Assembly (NCBI GenBank): GCA_036381125.1 | Contig: DASVDK010000343.1 | Span: 1-6,138 of the forward strand | Source: DASVDK01 sp036381125 [NCBI: Thermodesulfobacteriota bacterium] | Lineage (GTDB): Bacteria; DASVDK01 | DNA: 6,138 bases | Reading direction: 5' to 3' | In this document: in pieces, positions 1-6,138 of the stretch | Layout: the number at the start of each line of letters is the position of its first letter | How positions within the stretch are numbered: the stretch's first letter is position 1 | Notes under the pieces: model-generated | What the model was told of the DNA's origin: nothing | Databases searched by the model: none | Seen by the model: only the letters and a program-made list of their open reading frames with translations | Program-made: the position numbers and the translations under genes

Positions 1-29
1 GTGCCCACCTCGTCCTCGAACTGGATCAT
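1..29 (-). CDS. ftsZ: Cell division protein FtsZ, N-terminal fragment (first 9 codons)
   Basis: FtsZ is the tubulin-like GTPase that forms the division ring. Only the start is in the window: an ATG at 29-27 followed by codons for MIQFEDEVG, after which the frame runs off the left edge. The call rests on three things: its place directly after ftsA in an ftsW-murG-murC-ftsQ-ftsA series, the acidic start typical of FtsZ N-termini, and a strong Shine-Dalgarno five bases upstream. No GTPase motif is visible, so the identity is inferred from gene order rather than from the protein. Unlike the other junctions in the cluster, ftsZ does not overlap its upstream neighbour. It is separated by 168 bp of hairpin-rich DNA, which leaves room for separate control of its expression. 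Confidence 0.8.
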
Positions 30-34
30 CGGTG

Positions 35-42
35 CCTCCTCC
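35..42 (-). promoter_or_regulatory. Ribosome binding site of ftsZ
   Basis: GGAGGAGG on the minus strand lies 5 nt before the ATG at 29. It is among the strongest Shine-Dalgarno sequences in the window, fits the high output expected of ftsZ, and fixes the start codon. Confidence 0.8.
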
Positions 43-53
43 AACGGCTCGCA

Positions 54-91
54 GCCAGCTTCCGCTCCGCGCGGGTGGAGCCCGCGCTCCG
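54..91 (-). repeat. 38-bp structured repeat, copy 1 (ftsZ leader)
   Basis: On the plus strand the copy is a 15-nt arm, gccagcttccgctcc (54-68), then a stem-loop GCGCGGG-TGGAG-CCCGCGC (69-87, perfect 7-bp stem), then tccg (88-91). Copy 2 at 2334-2371 has the same architecture and length: the arm matches at 14 of 15 positions and tccg is identical. The stems differ at three base pairs, all with compensatory changes. In the transcribed direction the order is CGGA, hairpin, GGAGCGGAAG. The element ends 24 nt before the ftsZ ATG. Confidence 0.75.
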
Positions 92-111
92 AACGTGGGT
101 CCCGCCCACCT

Positions 112-129
112 CCCGGGCTACGCCCCGGG
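112..129 (-). repeat. GC-rich hairpin in ftsZ leader, possible relative of 2377-2397
   Basis: On the plus strand CCCGGGC (112-118) faces GCCCCGGG (122-129) across a TAC loop, giving seven pairs with one bulged C (126). It is followed by tccac, which resembles the accccac that follows the 2377-2397 hairpin in the ftsQ leader. The two may therefore be diverged copies of a second shared module. Confidence 0.5.
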
Positions 130-138
130 TCCACGTCG

Positions 139-155
139 GGAGGCTGCTCGCCTCC
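139..155 (-). repeat. Inverted repeat in ftsZ leader
   Basis: GGAGGC (139-144) pairs perfectly with GCCTCC (150-155) around a 5-nt loop. It directly abuts the next hairpin at 156, so the two would stack if both form. No T-run follows on the transcribed strand. Confidence 0.55.
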
Positions 156-175
156 GCCGGCGCCTTCGCGCCGGC
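156..175 (-). repeat. Perfect 8-bp hairpin just downstream of ftsA
   Basis: GCCGGCGC (156-163) pairs with GCGCCGGC (168-175) around a 4-nt loop that reads GAAG on the transcribed strand. It lies 22 nt after the ftsA stop codon. The following bases (GGCGGAGG on the minus strand) are not T-rich, so it is a poor intrinsic terminator. It could instead protect the upstream message from 3' exonucleases, which is inference. Confidence 0.6.
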
Positions 176-197
176 TGCCGGTGTTCGATCAATCCGC

Positions 198-1436
198 CTA
201 GAAGTACTCCGAAAACCAGGACTTCATTCGCTGCGCGACCTTGGCGAAGAGGCGGGGCTCCCCGACCCGGAAGCGCCGCGGCTCCCCCTGCTCGTGCTGG
301 TGCTTGAGGCCGTAGAGCACGAGCCCGACGCCGGTCGCGTACATGGGGCTGTTGACCACGTCGACGAGCCCGCCGATCCCCATGGGGTAGCCCCGCCGGA
401 TCGGCAGGTTGAACGTCTGCTCCGCCAGCTCCGTCATCCCCTCCATGATGGTCGCGCCCCCGGTGATGACGACGCCCGACGCCAGGACGTCCTCGAAGCC
501 GCTCTTGACGATCTCCCGCGCCGCGAGCTGGTAGATCTCCTCGACGCGGGGCTGGATGATCTCCGCGAGGATCTGCCGCGACAGGACCCGCGGCGGGCGG
601 CCGCCGACCGACGGCACCTCGACCGTGTCGTCGCGCCGCACGAGGCTCGTGAGCGCGCAGCCGTGCTTCTTCTTGAGCCGTTCCGCCTCCACGTCGGGCG
701 TCCGCACGCCGAAGCCGATGTCCTTGGTGATCTGGTTGCCGCCCATCGCGATCACGGCGGTGTGCTTCACCCCCCCCTCGGCGAAGACCGCCACGTCGGT
801 CGTCCCCCCGCCGACGTCGAGCAGCGCCACGCCGAGCTCGCGCTCGTCGGGCGTCAGCACCGCCTCGGCCGAGGCGAGCTGCTGGAGCACGATGTCGGAC
901 ACCTCGAGGCCGGTGCGGTTCACGCACTTCACGATGTTCTGCGCGCTCGTCACGGCCGCGGTCACGATGTGCACCTTGGCCTCGAGCCGCACGCCGCTCA
1001 TGCCGACCGGGTCCTTGACGCCGTCCTGGTCGTCCACGACGAACTCCTGCGGGAGGATGTGGATGACCTCGCGGTCGAGCGGGATCGCGATCGCCTTGGC
1101 GGCGTCGATGACGCGCCGGACGTCCTGCGGGCTCACCTCCCGGTCCTTGACCGCCACGATGCCGTGGGAGTTGAAGCCCTTGATGTGGCCCCCCGCGATC
1201 CCGACGTAGACCGACTGGATCTGGCAGCCGGCCATGAGCTCCGCCTCCTCGATGGCCTTCTTGATCGAGGCGACGGTGGCGTCGATGTTGATCACGACGC
1301 CCTTGCTGAGCCCCTTCGACGGGTACGTCCCGATGCCGATGATGTCGATGCCGTCGGGGGTCGCCTCGCCGACGATGGCGCAGATCTTCGTCGTTCCGAT
1401 GTCGAGGCCGACGATGAGGTTCCCCTGCTTGCTCAC
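198..1436 (-). CDS. ftsA: Cell division protein FtsA (actin-like membrane anchor of FtsZ)
   Basis: FtsA is an actin-fold ATPase on the inner face of the membrane that tethers FtsZ filaments and recruits later division proteins. The product is 412 aa, a usual length. Visible motifs are phosphate-1 DIGTTK (12-17), an SHS2/1C region around 84-163 containing YVGIAGGHI, phosphate-2 DVGGGTTD (207-214), and the adenosine motif VITGGATIMEGM (323-334). The C-terminal end, 395-412, is an amphipathic basic/aromatic helix (RMKSWFSEYF) that fits the family's membrane-targeting sequence. The start is a GTG whose last two bases form part of the ftsQ stop (GTGA, 4-nt overlap), with GGAGGGGG 9 nt upstream, so translation is probably coupled to ftsQ. 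The frame stays open further upstream, but that part is antisense-like noise over ftsQ. Nothing essential is missing. Confidence 0.97.
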   Translation of the reverse strand: MSKQGNLIVGLDIGTTKICAIVGEATPDGIDIIGIGTYPSKGLSKGVVINIDATVASIKKAIEEAELMAGCQIQSVYVGIAGGHIKGFNSHGIVAVKDREVSPQDVRRVIDAAKAIAIPLDREVIHILPQEFVVDDQDGVKDPVGMSGVRLEAKVHIVTAAVTSAQNIVKCVNRTGLEVSDIVLQQLASAEAVLTPDERELGVALLDVGGGTTDVAVFAEGGVKHTAVIAMGGNQITKDIGFGVRTPDVEAERLKKKHGCALTSLVRRDDTVEVPSVGGRPPRVLSRQILAEIIQPRVEEIYQLAAREIVKSGFEDVLASGVVITGGATIMEGMTELAEQTFNLPIRRGYPMGIGGLVDVVNSPMYATGVGLVLYGLKHQHEQGEPRRFRVGEPRLFAKVAQRMKSWFSEYF

Positions 1437-2314
1437 AGCTCGTGTCCCCCTCCGGAAGTGCCGGTGGACCGCGGCCCCTCCGCCCTCGCGCCGGACCTCG
1501 CGATCCGCCGGCCGTCCGAGCGGGTCTTCACCACGGCGCGATGCGCGAAGGTGAGGTCGATCCGCTCGGCCGCCTCGCCGGCGGCCGCGAGGTACGCGAG
1601 GACCCGAACGGCGCGCTCGAGCTTGGGCCCGAAGGGTCCGTCCCCGAGAACGATCGTCAGCCGACCGCCGGCGGAGGCCCGCTCCGCCGCGGTGCGCAGC
1701 ACGAACCCCCGGACCGGGTCGACGTGCAGCTCCGAGACCCGCGCCGGCAGCCGCGCGCCGGCGAGATCGAGGAGCCCGAGCGCCTCGACCAGGCGCGCCG
1801 CCGTCCCGGACGGGTCGGCGGCCACGGCCGCCGCGCTGAGCCCGGTGACCACCGGAAGGTCGGCCTCCTCCCCGTGCTCGACCGGCTTGATGATCCGGCC
1901 CGACGCGTCGGCGAAGTAGAGCCGATCGAGCTGGACGAGCAGGGCCGCCCGCCGCTCGGTCACCTCGAGCACGAGGCGCGAGGGGAGCTCGCGGCGCGCC
2001 ACCACCCGGCCGACCCAGGGGTGCGCCTCCACGCGCTCCACCACGAGACCGAGGTCCAGCGCGAGGAGCGGCGCGCCGGGGGTCACCCGCGCGAGGCCGA
2101 GGACCGTCTGCCGCGTGAGGTGCCGCGCCGGCCGGGTGAAGCGCACCTCGACCTCCTCGATCGCGAAGGCCGGCAGGGACGAGAGCCAGCGCCCCGTGCC
2201 GACCGCCACGATCACCGCCGCGAGGCCGGCGGCCGCGCCGAGCGCCAGCCCGCGCCGCACGGTCGACCGCCGGGCGCGCCTGACCGCCCGCTGGGCCATC
2301 AGCACGCGGCTCAC
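1433..2314 (-). CDS. ftsQ: Cell division protein FtsQ (POTRA-domain divisome protein)
   Basis: FtsQ is a bitopic inner-membrane protein that links early cytoplasmic and late periplasmic divisome parts through FtsB/FtsL. From the chosen GTG (2314) it has 293 aa: a short Arg-rich cytoplasmic tail (8-21), one membrane helix (about 22-44), a POTRA domain (about 50-118, starting IEEVEVRF, with HPWV and LVLEVTERR), then the FtsQ beta domain (about 119-265, with DLPVVTG and IDLTF.HRAVV). A low-complexity Gly/Arg/Ser tail ends it. The start was chosen because GAGGAG lies 7 nt upstream. Alternatives are an ATG at 2299 (no clear Shine-Dalgarno), a GTG at 2338 (which lies inside a repeat) and an ATG at 2419 (which would translate hairpin DNA). 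FtsQ diverges strongly between phyla, so the call relies on domain order plus location before ftsA. Confidence 0.9.
   Translation of the reverse strand: MSRVLMAQRAVRRARRSTVRRGLALGAAAGLAAVIVAVGTGRWLSSLPAFAIEEVEVRFTRPARHLTRQTVLGLARVTPGAPLLALDLGLVVERVEAHPWVGRVVARRELPSRLVLEVTERRAALLVQLDRLYFADASGRIIKPVEHGEEADLPVVTGLSAAAVAADPSGTAARLVEALGLLDLAGARLPARVSELHVDPVRGFVLRTAAERASAGGRLTIVLGDGPFGPKLERAVRVLAYLAAAGEAAERIDLTFAHRAVVKTRSDGRRIARSGARAEGPRSTGTSGGGHEL
1446..1453 (-). promoter_or_regulatory. Ribosome binding site of ftsA, inside ftsQ
   Basis: GGAGGGGG lies 9 nt before the GTG at 1436, within the last codons of ftsQ. It selects this GTG over upstream in-frame starts. Confidence 0.7.
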
Positions 2315-2321
2315 GCCGCTG

Positions 2322-2327
2322 CTCCTC
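2322..2327 (-). promoter_or_regulatory. Ribosome binding site of ftsQ (decides the start)
   Basis: GAGGAG lies 7 nt before the GTG at 2314. The competing GTG at 2338 has GGAG 6 nt upstream, but both belong to the structured repeat that is also present untranslated before ftsZ. Confidence 0.55.
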
Positions 2328-2333
2328 GTCGGC

Positions 2334-2371
2334 GCCACCTTCCGCTCCGGCCAGGCAGAGCCTGGCCTCCG
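2334..2371 (-). repeat. 38-bp structured repeat, copy 2 (ftsQ leader)
   Basis: On the plus strand the copy is the arm gccaccttccgctcc (2334-2348), the stem-loop GGCCAGGC-AGA-GCCTGGCC (2349-2367, perfect 8-bp stem), then tccg (2368-2371). Relative to copy 1 (54-91), stem pairs 2/18, 3/17 and 5/15 change from C-G, G-C and G-C to G-C, C-G and A-T, so pairing is kept while sequence changes. The element ends 19 nt before the chosen ftsQ start. Confidence 0.75.
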
Positions 2372-2376
2372 CTCGA

Positions 2377-2397
2377 CCGGGGGCCGCAGGCCCCCGG
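2377..2397 (-). repeat. Perfect 9-bp GC hairpin in ftsQ leader
   Basis: CCGGGGGCC (2377-2385) pairs with GGCCCCCGG (2389-2397) around a GCA loop. It is the strongest stem in the window. It is not followed by T residues on the transcribed strand (next is TCGAGCGGA), so it is unlikely to be an intrinsic terminator. It may be a relative of the hairpin at 112-129. Confidence 0.65.
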
Positions 2398-2432
2398 ACC
2401 CCACCCACCGGTGGCGCATGACCTTGTGCGGC

Positions 2433-3810
<1,378 letters not shown>

Positions 3811-3818
<8 letters not shown>

Positions 3819-4938
3819 GCACGGCCCTCGCCGCCGCGGAGCCCGAGGGGCGCAGAAGGCGCATGAGCTCGTCCACGACCCGGTCGGCCGCCGCCGGCTC
3901 GCCGAGGCGGCCGGCCGCGGCCGCCATCTCGGCCCGCCGGCCGGGGTCGTCGAGAAGCCTGCCGACCTCGGCGGCCAGCCGCTCGCCGGTCAGCTCGGCG
4001 TCCCGGATCCGCACCGCGGCGCCCGCCGTCACGAGGGCGCGCGCGTTGGCCTCCTGGTGGTCGTCGGCCGCGAAGGGGTACGGCACGAGGATCGCGGGCC
4101 GACCGACCGCCGTCAGCTCCGCCACGGTGCTCGCGCCCGCCCGGCAGACCAGGAGGTCGGCCCATGCGTACTGCGCGGCCATGTCGTCGATGAAGGCGCG
4201 CACGTCGGCTCGATCCGGCCCCCACCCGGCCGCGCGGTAGCCCGCCTCGACCGCCGCCCGCGACGACTCGCCCGTCTGGTGCACGATCGCCAGCCGGTCG
4301 CCGAACCGGTCGAGGCCGGCCAGGGCGCCGAGCATCGCCTCGTTGATCCGGCGCGCGCCGGCGCTGCCGCCGAAGACGAGCAGGTGGAGCCGGCCGTCCT
4401 CCGAGGCGTCGCGCGGCGGCACCGACCGGAAGGCGCGCCGGATCGGGTTTCCGGTGCGCACGACCTTGGCAGGCGGGAACGCCGCCGACCCGGACGGCGG
4501 CTCGAACGTCGTGAAGACCCGGTCGACCAGGCGGCCGAGCCACCGGTTCGTGAGACCGGGCACCGCGTTCTGCTCCATGATCGCCGTCGGCCGGCCGAGC
4601 AGCGCCGCGGCCGCGACGACCGGGCCGGAGGCGTAGCCGCCGACGCCGAGGACCAGGTCGGGCCGCTCGCGGCGCACGATCCTCGCCGCGGCGAGGAGGG
4701 CCGCCGGCAGGCCGAGGAGCGTGCGCGCGAGGCCCGCGACGCCCTGCCCCTTGAGCGTGCCGACCTCGATGAACTCGACCGGGAAGCCGGCCCGCGGCAC
4801 CGCGCGCGCCTCGATGCCGCGCCGGGTCCCGACGAAGCGCACCTCCCCGCCCGGCGTGCGAGCGAGGAACGCCTCGGCCACTGCCAGGCCGGGGAAGAGG
4901 TGACCGCCGGTGCCGCCGCCCGCGACGAGGAGCCTCAT
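3811..4938 (-). CDS. murG: UDP-GlcNAc:lipid I N-acetylglucosaminyltransferase MurG
   Basis: MurG is a peripheral GT-B glycosyltransferase on the cytoplasmic membrane face that converts lipid I to lipid II. The product is 375 aa, a little above the usual 355-365. Motifs: glycine loop GGGTGGH (7-13) with the conserved His at 13, GVGGYASGP (98-106), [10 protein letters not shown] (122-131), TGNPIR (162-167), second glycine loop FGGSAGA (189-195) followed by INE, HQTG (220-223), and the UDP-GlcNAc site [10 protein letters not shown] (265-274) with [14 protein letters not shown] (286-299). The N-terminal half is acceptor/membrane binding and the C-terminal half binds the donor. The ATG overlaps the ftsW stop (ATGA) and has AGGGGA 5 nt upstream. 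The frame stays open far upstream across ftsW, but that part is noise in another frame. The Ala-rich C-terminal tail (364-375) overlaps murC. Confidence 0.98.
3825..3829 (-). promoter_or_regulatory. Ribosome binding site of murC, inside murG
   Basis: A modest GAGGG lies 6 nt before the ATG at 3818, within the murG coding end. Its weakness fits initiation helped by ribosomes finishing murG. Confidence 0.5.
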
Positions 4939-6138
4939 GGGCGTCCCCTGCGCGCGGCCGGCGACACGGGCCGGGCCGGCGAACGGCGGGCCACGCCTCG
5001 CGTCCCCGCGCCGCGCGTCAGGGGCGCGGGGGCGGCGCGAACGGCCCGCATCGGCGCGCCCGACCGCACCGCGGCCGACACGTTGAGGAGCAGCCCCGCG
5101 CAGGCGAGCGCCGCCACGAGGGCGCTGCCGCCGGCCGAGACGAACGGCAGCGGCAGCCCCTTGGTGGGCAGGCAGCCGAGGACGACGCCGAGGTTGACGA
5201 CCGCCTGCAGGCCGATCGTCAGCGCCGCGCCGGCCGCGAGGAGCGCCGCGAAGGGGGTCGGCGCCCGGCGCGCCACCTCGAGGCCGCGCACCACGAGCAG
5301 CGCGAAGAGCGCCACCATCACCGAGAAGCCGACGAGGCCCAGCTCCTCCGCCACGACCGCCGCCACGAAGTCCGTATGCGGCTCCGGCAGGAAGAGGAGC
5401 TTCTGCTGCCCCTCGCCGAGCCCCCGCCCGAAGAGGCCGCCCGAGCCGACGGCGACGAACGACTGGATGACCTGCCAGCCGCTGCCGGTCGCGTGGCTCC
5501 AGGGGTCGAGGAAGGCCAGGACGCGGGCGCGGCGGTACGGCACGCGCATGACGAGCAGGTAGAGCACCGGCAGCGCGGCGAGGACGAGGAGCCCGAGGTG
5601 CGAGATCCGCGCGCCGGCGACGAAGAGGAGCGCCGCCGCCACGGCGCCGAGGAGCACGGCGGTGCCGAAGTCCGGCTGTGCGACGACGAGGCCCACCGCC
5701 AGCCCCACCACGACGAGCCGCGGCAGCAGGCCGTCCCACCGGTCCACCCGGGCGTCGGGCCGCGCGAGGCGGGCGGCGAGCCAGAGCACGAGCGCAACCT
5801 TCATCGGCTCGGCCGGCTGGAGGCTCAGCCCCCCCACGGCGATCCACCGCGCCGTGCCGGCGACGCGGTGCGAAACCCCGGGCACGTGCGTCAGCGCGAG
5901 GAGGAGGAGGCCGACGAGGAGGGCCGGCCGGGCGAGACGCTCGAGGCGCGCGAGCGGCGTCGTGGCGGCGGCCGCCATCACCGCGAGGCCGATGGCCGCG
6001 TAGAGGAGCTGCCGCCGCAGGTAGTGCGCGCCGTCGCCGAACCGATCGGTGGCGAGCACGAACGACGCCGAGTAGACCATGACGATGCCGAGCGCGACGA
6101 GGGCCACGACCGGCAGCACGATCTGCCGGTCGCCCCAG
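4935..6138 (-). CDS. ftsW: Septal peptidoglycan polymerase FtsW (SEDS family), 5' end missing
   Basis: FtsW is the SEDS glycosyltransferase that polymerises lipid II at the septum together with a class B PBP. The frame is open to the right edge; codons upstream of the GTG at 6119 read WGDRQI, so the true start lies outside the window and only a short N-terminal piece is missing. Counting from 6119 as residue 1, about ten membrane helices are visible, beginning with LGIVMVYSAS (10-19), and a large extracellular loop spans roughly 192-255. SEDS motifs: QPAEPMK (101-107), QPDFGTAVLL (148-157), GRGLGEGQQKLLFLPEPHTDF (231-251, with the conserved Asp of HTDF at 250), EELG (258-261), and NLGVVLGCLPTKGLPLPFVS (309-328). 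LPEPHTDF and position beside murG favour FtsW over RodA. Oddities are QPAEP for the usual QPSEF/L and VSAGGSAL for VSYGGSSL. A 44-residue Arg/Ala/Pro-rich cytoplasmic tail ends it. Confidence 0.96.
   Translation of the reverse strand, partial: WGDRQIVLPVVALVALGIVMVYSASFVLATDRFGDGAHYLRRQLLYAAIGLAVMAAAATTPLARLERLARPALLVGLLLLALTHVPGVSHRVAGTARWIAVGGLSLQPAEPMKVALVLWLAARLARPDARVDRWDGLLPRLVVVGLAVGLVVAQPDFGTAVLLGAVAAALLFVAGARISHLGLLVLAALPVLYLLVMRVPYRRARVLAFLDPWSHATGSGWQVIQSFVAVGSGGLFGRGLGEGQQKLLFLPEPHTDFVAAVVAEELGLVGFSVMVALFALLVVRGLEVARRAPTPFAALLAAGAALTIGLQAVVNLGVVLGCLPTKGLPLPFVSAGGSALVAALACAGLLLNVSAAVRSGAPMRAVRAAPAPLTRGAGTRGVARRSPARPVSPAARRGRP
4944..4949 (-). promoter_or_regulatory. Ribosome binding site of murG, inside ftsW
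   Basis: AGGGGA lies 5 nt before the ATG at 4938, within the last codons of ftsW. It supports the start that gives the [14 protein letters not shown]-terminus. Confidence 0.65.

Follow-up and report, generated by a model that had tools for sequence, protein, structure and literature searches.

A division and cell wall (dcw) operon with just two non-coding gaps carries in each of them a short structured unit, the two being clearly related to each other, and the question raised by this locus is how they came to be there. The DNA concerned is a stretch of 6,138 nt with 71-78% G+C (positions 1-6138 of contig DASVDK010000343.1, from a Thermodesulfobacteriota bacterium), hereafter called the window, in which all genes are on the minus strand. 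A 38-nt element made of an arm, a hairpin and a short tail is found there twice, once upstream of ftsZ (copy Z) and once upstream of ftsQ (copy Q). Two related structured intergenic units therefore exist within one operon, and we are inclined to suggest, with a confidence that stays just below an even chance, that they are copies of a lineage-specific intergenic palindromic repeat resembling the repetitive extragenic palindromic (REP) sequences. The parts of the element are the following.

Positions 54-91, minus strand: copy Z, 38 nt, upstream of ftsZ, reading CGGA-hairpin-GGAGCGGAAGCUGGC in the mRNA.
Positions 69-87, minus strand: hairpin of copy Z, 7 bp with a 5-nt loop in RNA, and 8 pairs including one T-G on the plus strand.
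Positions 2334-2371, minus strand: copy Q, 38 nt, upstream of ftsQ, reading CGGA-hairpin-GGAGCGGAAGGUGGC in the mRNA.
Positions 2349-2367, minus strand: hairpin of copy Q, 8 bp with a 3-nt loop.

On the plus strand copy Z reads GCCAGCTTCCGCTCC-GCGCGGGTGGAGCCCGCGC-TCCG and copy Q reads GCCACCTTCCGCTCC-GGCCAGGCAGAGCCTGGCC-TCCG, in each case arm, 19-nt hairpin and tail, and the element can be written as the plus-strand pattern CTTCCGCTCC-N19-TCCG or, in mRNA sense, as CGGA, the 19-nt hairpin and then GGAGCGGAAG(C/G)UGGC. The order and the lengths of the parts (15-nt arm, 19-nt stem-loop, TCCG) had been given for both places in a preliminary description of this DNA and could be read directly from the letters, as could the identities between the copies, which amount to 14/15 in the arm and 11/19 in the stem-loop, with 4/4 in the tail. 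Over a wider interval (50-95 and 2330-2375) 33 of 46 columns are identical. Three stem pairs are changed on both sides with pairing kept, just as had been claimed, namely 2/18 (C-G to G-C), 3/17 (G-C to C-G) and 5/15 (G-C to A-T), and pair 8 is changed on one side only (T-G to C-G). Since the plus-strand T-G becomes A-C in the mRNA, copy Z has just 7 pairs in RNA. Both copies have the same orientation, and they end 24 nt (copy Z, ATG 29-27) and 19 nt (copy Q, GTG 2314-2312) before the start codons, again as described earlier, and 11 and 6 nt, respectively, before Shine-Dalgarno-like sequences. As isolated 38-mers in mRNA sense they fold unremarkably (z -0.60 and -1.37).

The likeness of the copies was compared with that found in 3000 pairs of dinucleotide-shuffled spacers. 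The identity of 18/19 in arm plus tail was matched by 0/3000 shuffled pairs (best 17), and the same was true of a combined score of 34/35 for arm, tail and pairs (best 30). Moreover, 19-mers with 8/8 pairing occur in the window in three frames on the plus strand and five on the minus strand, and the arm is common to this pair only. The proposal that the two units represent a structured element family was in this sense partly upheld, as a structured repeat beyond chance; on the choice it had left between a REP-like repeat and a leader element, the surroundings of the copies lean towards the former.

A small feature of the flanks can be mentioned here: the hairpin of copy Q has GAGCGGA on both sides (mRNA sense, 2341-2374), like a 7-nt direct repeat, and the left-flank counterpart in copy Z is GTTCGGA.

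The minus-strand gene order is ftsW-murG-murC-ftsQ-ftsA followed by the first 9 codons of ftsZ. The genes overlap at murG/ftsW, murC/murG and ftsA/ftsQ, so that these junctions leave no room for an inserted unit, and the only non-coding gaps are 2315-2432 (murC-ftsQ) and 30-197 (ftsA-ftsZ), both of which (2/2) carry the element.

Positions 30-197, minus strand: ftsA-ftsZ spacer, 168 nt; one way of drawing it gives five local stem-loops in a row, with copy Z as the last before the Shine-Dalgarno-like sequence.
Positions 95-175, minus strand: the four further stem-loops of the ftsA-ftsZ spacer (156-175, 139-155, 112-129 and 95-109).
Positions 2315-2432, minus strand: murC-ftsQ spacer, 118 nt, read from the sequence and compared in size with that of relatives.
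Positions 2377-2397, minus strand: second hairpin of the murC-ftsQ spacer, 9 bp with a 3-nt loop, directly preceding copy Q in the mRNA.

The four head-to-tail stem-loops ahead of copy Z fold better than shuffles (84-nt fold of 92-175, z -3.32). Relatives for comparison were loci found by FtsA (the best 80 of 312). The ftsA-ftsZ gap was measurable in 48 of these 80, with start codons assigned by a simple rule, and has a median of 29 nt, compared with 168 nt in the window; it reaches at least 100 nt in 7/48 and contains a hairpin of at least 7 bp in 2/48. The distance from the end of MurC to the first aligned FtsQ residue is 961-2471 nt in 61 of the 61 measurable loci, and in the window the whole murC-ftsQ gap is 118 nt. 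The interval of 1-2.5 kb in the relatives presumably makes room for murB and sometimes ddl, which we take to be the usual order. The long ftsA-ftsZ spacer, the presence of the element in both spacers and the lack of a convincing match in relatives make us lean to an inserted repeat.

The relatives available are all distant. No close relative of the lineage of the window was found in the collections searched, the best identity of full-length FtsA being 71% (among the best 80 of 312 matches in genome contigs) and 72-73% (395 genomes, phylum of genome G008). For MurG the best identity was 56% over its length (sets of 12, 59, 57 and 7 genomes), with a 58-residue fragment in genome G131 that is 64% identical, and FtsQ reached at most 41% (195, 46 and 377 genomes, among matches below E 1e-20 or 1e-24). 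FtsA matched 51 plasmid records, all at less than 60% identity, and the position of the window is not settled by a tree of 37 rows. As no close relative was found, an absence of copies means that the element is unseen in distant lineages only and is silent on its copy number in its own genome.

Further copies were sought with the plus-strand pattern and with a covariance model (R1) built on the two copies alone, and none that is convincing was found in viral contigs, in the loci of 95 relatives (best E of R1 0.25) or in 803 distant genomes. The preliminary description had held that missing conservation in close relatives, together with a lack of further copies in the genome, would speak against an element family; the relatives searched with the covariance model gave no convincing match, and these are distant ones only. 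In the viral contigs the 10-nt arm followed by 19 positions and TCCG gave at least 120 stretches, and a check over 200 loci gave 122 matches, 8/8 pairing being found in 0 and 7/8 in two. With a longer arm 44 stretches were obtained, and the best spacer among the best 20 folds at -11.7 kcal/mol with the stem placed otherwise, the true hairpins folding at -14.8 and -15.5 kcal/mol. The arm with a G/C-framed stem gave 0 matches in these contigs, and among 42 viral stretches that match a peptide pattern of FtsA there are 0 that encode an FtsA relative. The element pattern was also run against the genomes behind 38 of the 80 loci and occurs there at 47 places, in 19/38 genomes, versus 108 for the reversed control; the spacers of these 47 places were judged by eye.

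The R1 scans of distant genomes used strict filters, with at most 16 (377-genome set) or 32 (189-genome set) candidates scored per genome, and their E-values are rough. At E 0.01, matches were found in 5 of 377 genomes of a first phylum (E 0.004-0.009, where chance would give about 4), in 9 of 189 genomes of a second (about 2 expected, i.e. above the nominal rate) and in 0 of 237 genomes of a third. All five first-phylum matches were aligned and score 31.0-33.3 bits, the true copies scoring 66.3 bits. Four of the nine second-phylum matches were aligned, three of which have near-identical letters (L328, 41.0 bits; L329, 40.1 bits; L333, 34.6 bits); the L329 match sits inside a 642-aa open frame, and at L330 (36.7 bits) the match and the end of a 516-aa frame overlap. 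The other five score 32.7-33.8 bits. Considered as candidate copies, the matches of L328, L329, L333 and L330 were rejected and taken as coding or chance, their scores being at most 41 bits versus 66.3. The empty answer of R1 is weak because no genome known to carry the element was among those scanned.

When set against known systems, the two units share several features with REP sequences, whose general definition in the available part of PMC12306157 is extragenic, palindromic with a stem-loop, short (14-40 nt in E. coli), with a common consensus and multi-copy. Three of these five features are found here: the units lie outside coding regions, in the murC/ftsQ and ftsA/ftsZ gaps (with the caveat that ftsQ might start at 2419), they form a palindromic stem-loop (7 and 8 bp for the RNA units folded in isolation), and they are short, with a 38-nt unit and a 19-nt hairpin. 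For a consensus there are the 33 identical columns of 46, from two copies only. Like the GTAG and CGTC super-families of REPs (in what could be consulted of PMC3733652 and PMC12306157), the element is a short extragenic hairpin with conserved end letters, a stem in the range of 6-9 bp and alternative complementary residues, the last of these being described for the stems of GTAG REPs in the former source. Unlike them, its stem is edged in both copies by CGGA and GGAG (mRNA sense) and not by the GTAG or CGTC tag (PMC3733652), its conserved flank is longer (about 10-15 nt) and on one side only, two copies are known and no REP-associated tyrosine transposase (RAYT) was seen in the window. The doublets called REPINs (REP doublets forming hairpins) in Pseudomonas fluorescens SBW25 are alike in that their ends are conserved and the hairpin between them varies by compensatory changes (PMC3116915, available sections); nevertheless a REPIN is an inverted REP doublet with 16-bp conserved ends according to these sections, whereas single units of the same orientation are found here and no opposite-strand copy occurs in the window. 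Since the tag and the inverted doublet are both missing, we call the element REP-like and not a GTAG REP, a CGTC REP or a REPIN. Moreover, as REPINs and GTAG REPs also vary their paired stems, covariation alone does not require a regulatory RNA.

The Correia elements of Neisseria, which are miniature inverted-repeat transposable elements (MITEs), are likewise small non-autonomous repeats, unlike which the unit here is of 38-46 bp and lacks ends of their kind. A study of the Neisseria dcw cluster (Snyder et al. 2003) is cited for transcription signals in Correia elements in the accessible portion of PMC3898611, and it is also cited in that of PMC5896051. In the literature, as judged by titles and abstract openings, we found no comparable leader element of ftsZ or ftsQ, and no paper was found joining the dcw cluster, Correia and ftsZ.

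If the units are indeed REP-like, the conserved flank (GGAGCGGAAG in mRNA sense, with CGGA on the other side) would enclose a hairpin whose stem letters drift as pairing is kept. The units would have settled in the two gaps of the dcw operon alongside other hairpins, lengthening both gaps, and we infer that they spread as a non-autonomous repeat that relied on another enzyme for its movement or copying. They would be transcribed within the polycistronic mRNA, where stable intercistronic hairpins can slow exonucleases and shield the neighbouring message as a generic effect, and the hairpins described here may in this way slow the decay of the ftsZ and ftsQ messages or shield them. Stabilization of mRNA is among the roles proposed for REPs in the abstract of PMC3733652. 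A REP-like element would add a tag type, CGGA-stem-GGAGCGGAAG, that falls outside both super-families of PMC3733652 and comes from a poorly sampled lineage, and it would illustrate how spacers of the dcw operon grow through hairpin insertion.

Several points weigh against this reading. Multiple copies are the core of the REP idea, and two copies only are known, in a 6.1 kb window. Both have the same orientation and similar distances of 24 and 19 nt to the start codons, which random placement would give occasionally. The window contains no inverted copy and no transposase was seen in it, and neither copy has GTAG or CGTC at its end. The folds of the whole spacers are only slightly more stable than those of shuffles (z -1.67 and -1.93), and the minimum-energy fold of the whole ftsA-ftsZ spacer pairs copy Z differently. 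In addition, a further set of loci has a short murC-ftsQ junction in three of nine measurable cases (L236, 393 nt; L237, 321 nt; L249, 267 nt), so the junction of the window is not unique and the leader may be older; these three junctions lowered our confidence slightly, from an even chance to the level given at the outset.

The explanation that survives best beside it is that of a shared cis-acting leader, in which the hairpin and the purine-rich GGAGCGGAAG upstream of the Shine-Dalgarno-like sequence would set or couple the translation of FtsQ and FtsZ, whether as a standby site, by protein binding or by protection of the mRNA end. The sites concerned are these.

Positions 36-42, minus strand: Shine-Dalgarno-like GGAGGAG of ftsZ, seen in the sequence.
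Positions 2322-2327, minus strand: Shine-Dalgarno-like GAGGAG of ftsQ, seen in the sequence, serving the GTG start at 2314.

The agreement of the copies in orientation and order, their distances to the starts and to the Shine-Dalgarno-like sequences, the compensatory changes in the stem and an arm that, although outside the hairpin, is better kept than the hairpin itself (14/15 versus 11/19) are all what a leader would predict. However, the loci of the 95 relatives gave no convincing match, the 10-nt arm at fewer than 2 mismatches is present in 0 of the 48 measured ftsA-ftsZ spacers, all of distant relatives, and Rfam (release 15) has 0 matches at gathering score in the window, the sole sub-threshold match at a relaxed threshold (in 1-2500) having an E of 2.1 and lying inside ftsA on the opposite strand. 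A leader is on this evidence unlikely, and keeps some weight because of the shared orientation and the distances of 24 and 19 nt to the starts, which with two copies are no more than suggestive. A regulatory role as a shared leader of FtsQ and FtsZ is possible but unsupported. The stronger claim of a new type of RNA leader element, present twice in one operon and tying the output of FtsQ (divisome assembly) to that of FtsZ (the ring) through a hairpin and a purine arm by the ribosome site, appears improbable. If the units do act as a leader element, FtsQ and FtsZ would be linked directly at the post-transcriptional level. Between a REP-like repeat and a leader element we consider the REP-like repeat much the likelier.

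A duplicated spacer is also improbable as the origin of the two copies. On this view a segment of one spacer would have been transferred as a copy to the second site when the murC-ftsQ junction was rearranged, with its hairpin drifting later. Two copies in one operon and in one orientation are consistent with this, as is a murC-ftsQ junction unlike that of the 61 measured loci found by FtsA, though not unlike that of three of nine loci in the further set. However, the longest word common to the two spacers is the 11-mer of the element itself, and because they share no word beyond it the copied segment can hardly have been larger than the element; moreover, the arm would have remained almost unchanged over a period in which the stem took up the several mutations that three compensatory changes require.

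Somewhat more doubtful still is that copy Q is coding, which would be the case if FtsQ started at ATG 2419, 13 nt after murC, with the element translated in frame. The Rickettsia palindromic element is an example of a repeat translated in frame. The frame is open from 2419, its third position has 94% G+C compared with 96-99% in FtsQ, FtsA and MurC, and the genes at the remaining junctions overlap tightly. Because the frame is open to this ATG with such a third position (2315-2419), it is uncertain where FtsQ truly starts. Nevertheless, 35 codons without a stop are by a rough estimate unsurprising at this G+C content, the second position has 74% G+C compared with 40-56% in FtsQ, FtsA and MurC, and GTG 2314 has a good GAGGAG at 7 nt whereas ATG 2419 has just AAGG at 2 nt. 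Copy Z would moreover be left unexplained, since it lies upstream of the ftsZ start, where the frame meets a stop codon close to the far end of the spacer.

A chance likeness of two GC-rich hairpins is very improbable and was rejected: the shared 11-mer taken alone is indeed weaker, being matched by 117 of 3000 shuffled pairs, and hairpins of at least 7 bp (G-T allowed) abound throughout the G+C-rich window, but arm, spacing, tail and full pairing occurred jointly in 0/3000 shuffles and, in the window-wide scan of paired 19-mers, nowhere else.

With regard to other signals, 0 intrinsic terminators with a T-run and no promoter of the sigma-70 type were found in positions 1-2500 of the window. 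In the fold of the murC-ftsQ spacer a closing helix, GCGCCACC/GGUGGCGC, appears. A six-pair counterpart drawn by eye in the ftsA-ftsZ spacer is likely to be due to chance at this G+C content and was not counted.

The genes of the window are as follows.

Positions 1-29, minus strand: start of ftsZ (MIQFEDEVG...), 9 residues in the window, start ATG 29-27.
Positions 198-1436, minus strand: ftsA, 412 aa, TIGR01174 with E 9e-145.
Positions 1433-2314, minus strand: ftsQ, 293 aa from the start GTG 2314-2312, or 328 aa from the alternative upstream ATG 2419.
Positions 2433-3818, minus strand: murC, TIGR01082 with E 2.9e-165.
Positions 3811-4938, minus strand: murG, TIGR01133 with E 1.3e-92.
Positions 4935-6137, minus strand: ftsW, TIGR02614 with E 8.6e-116, its 5' end lying beyond the window.

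The partial gene at 1-29 we take to be ftsZ from its place after ftsA and from its N-terminus. The product of ftsQ is without an NCBIfam match, and its name is for this reason our assumption from position and from general knowledge of such operons. A tblastn match to ftsQ was obtained in 72 of the 80 loci found by FtsA, and in those listed it lies immediately before ftsA.
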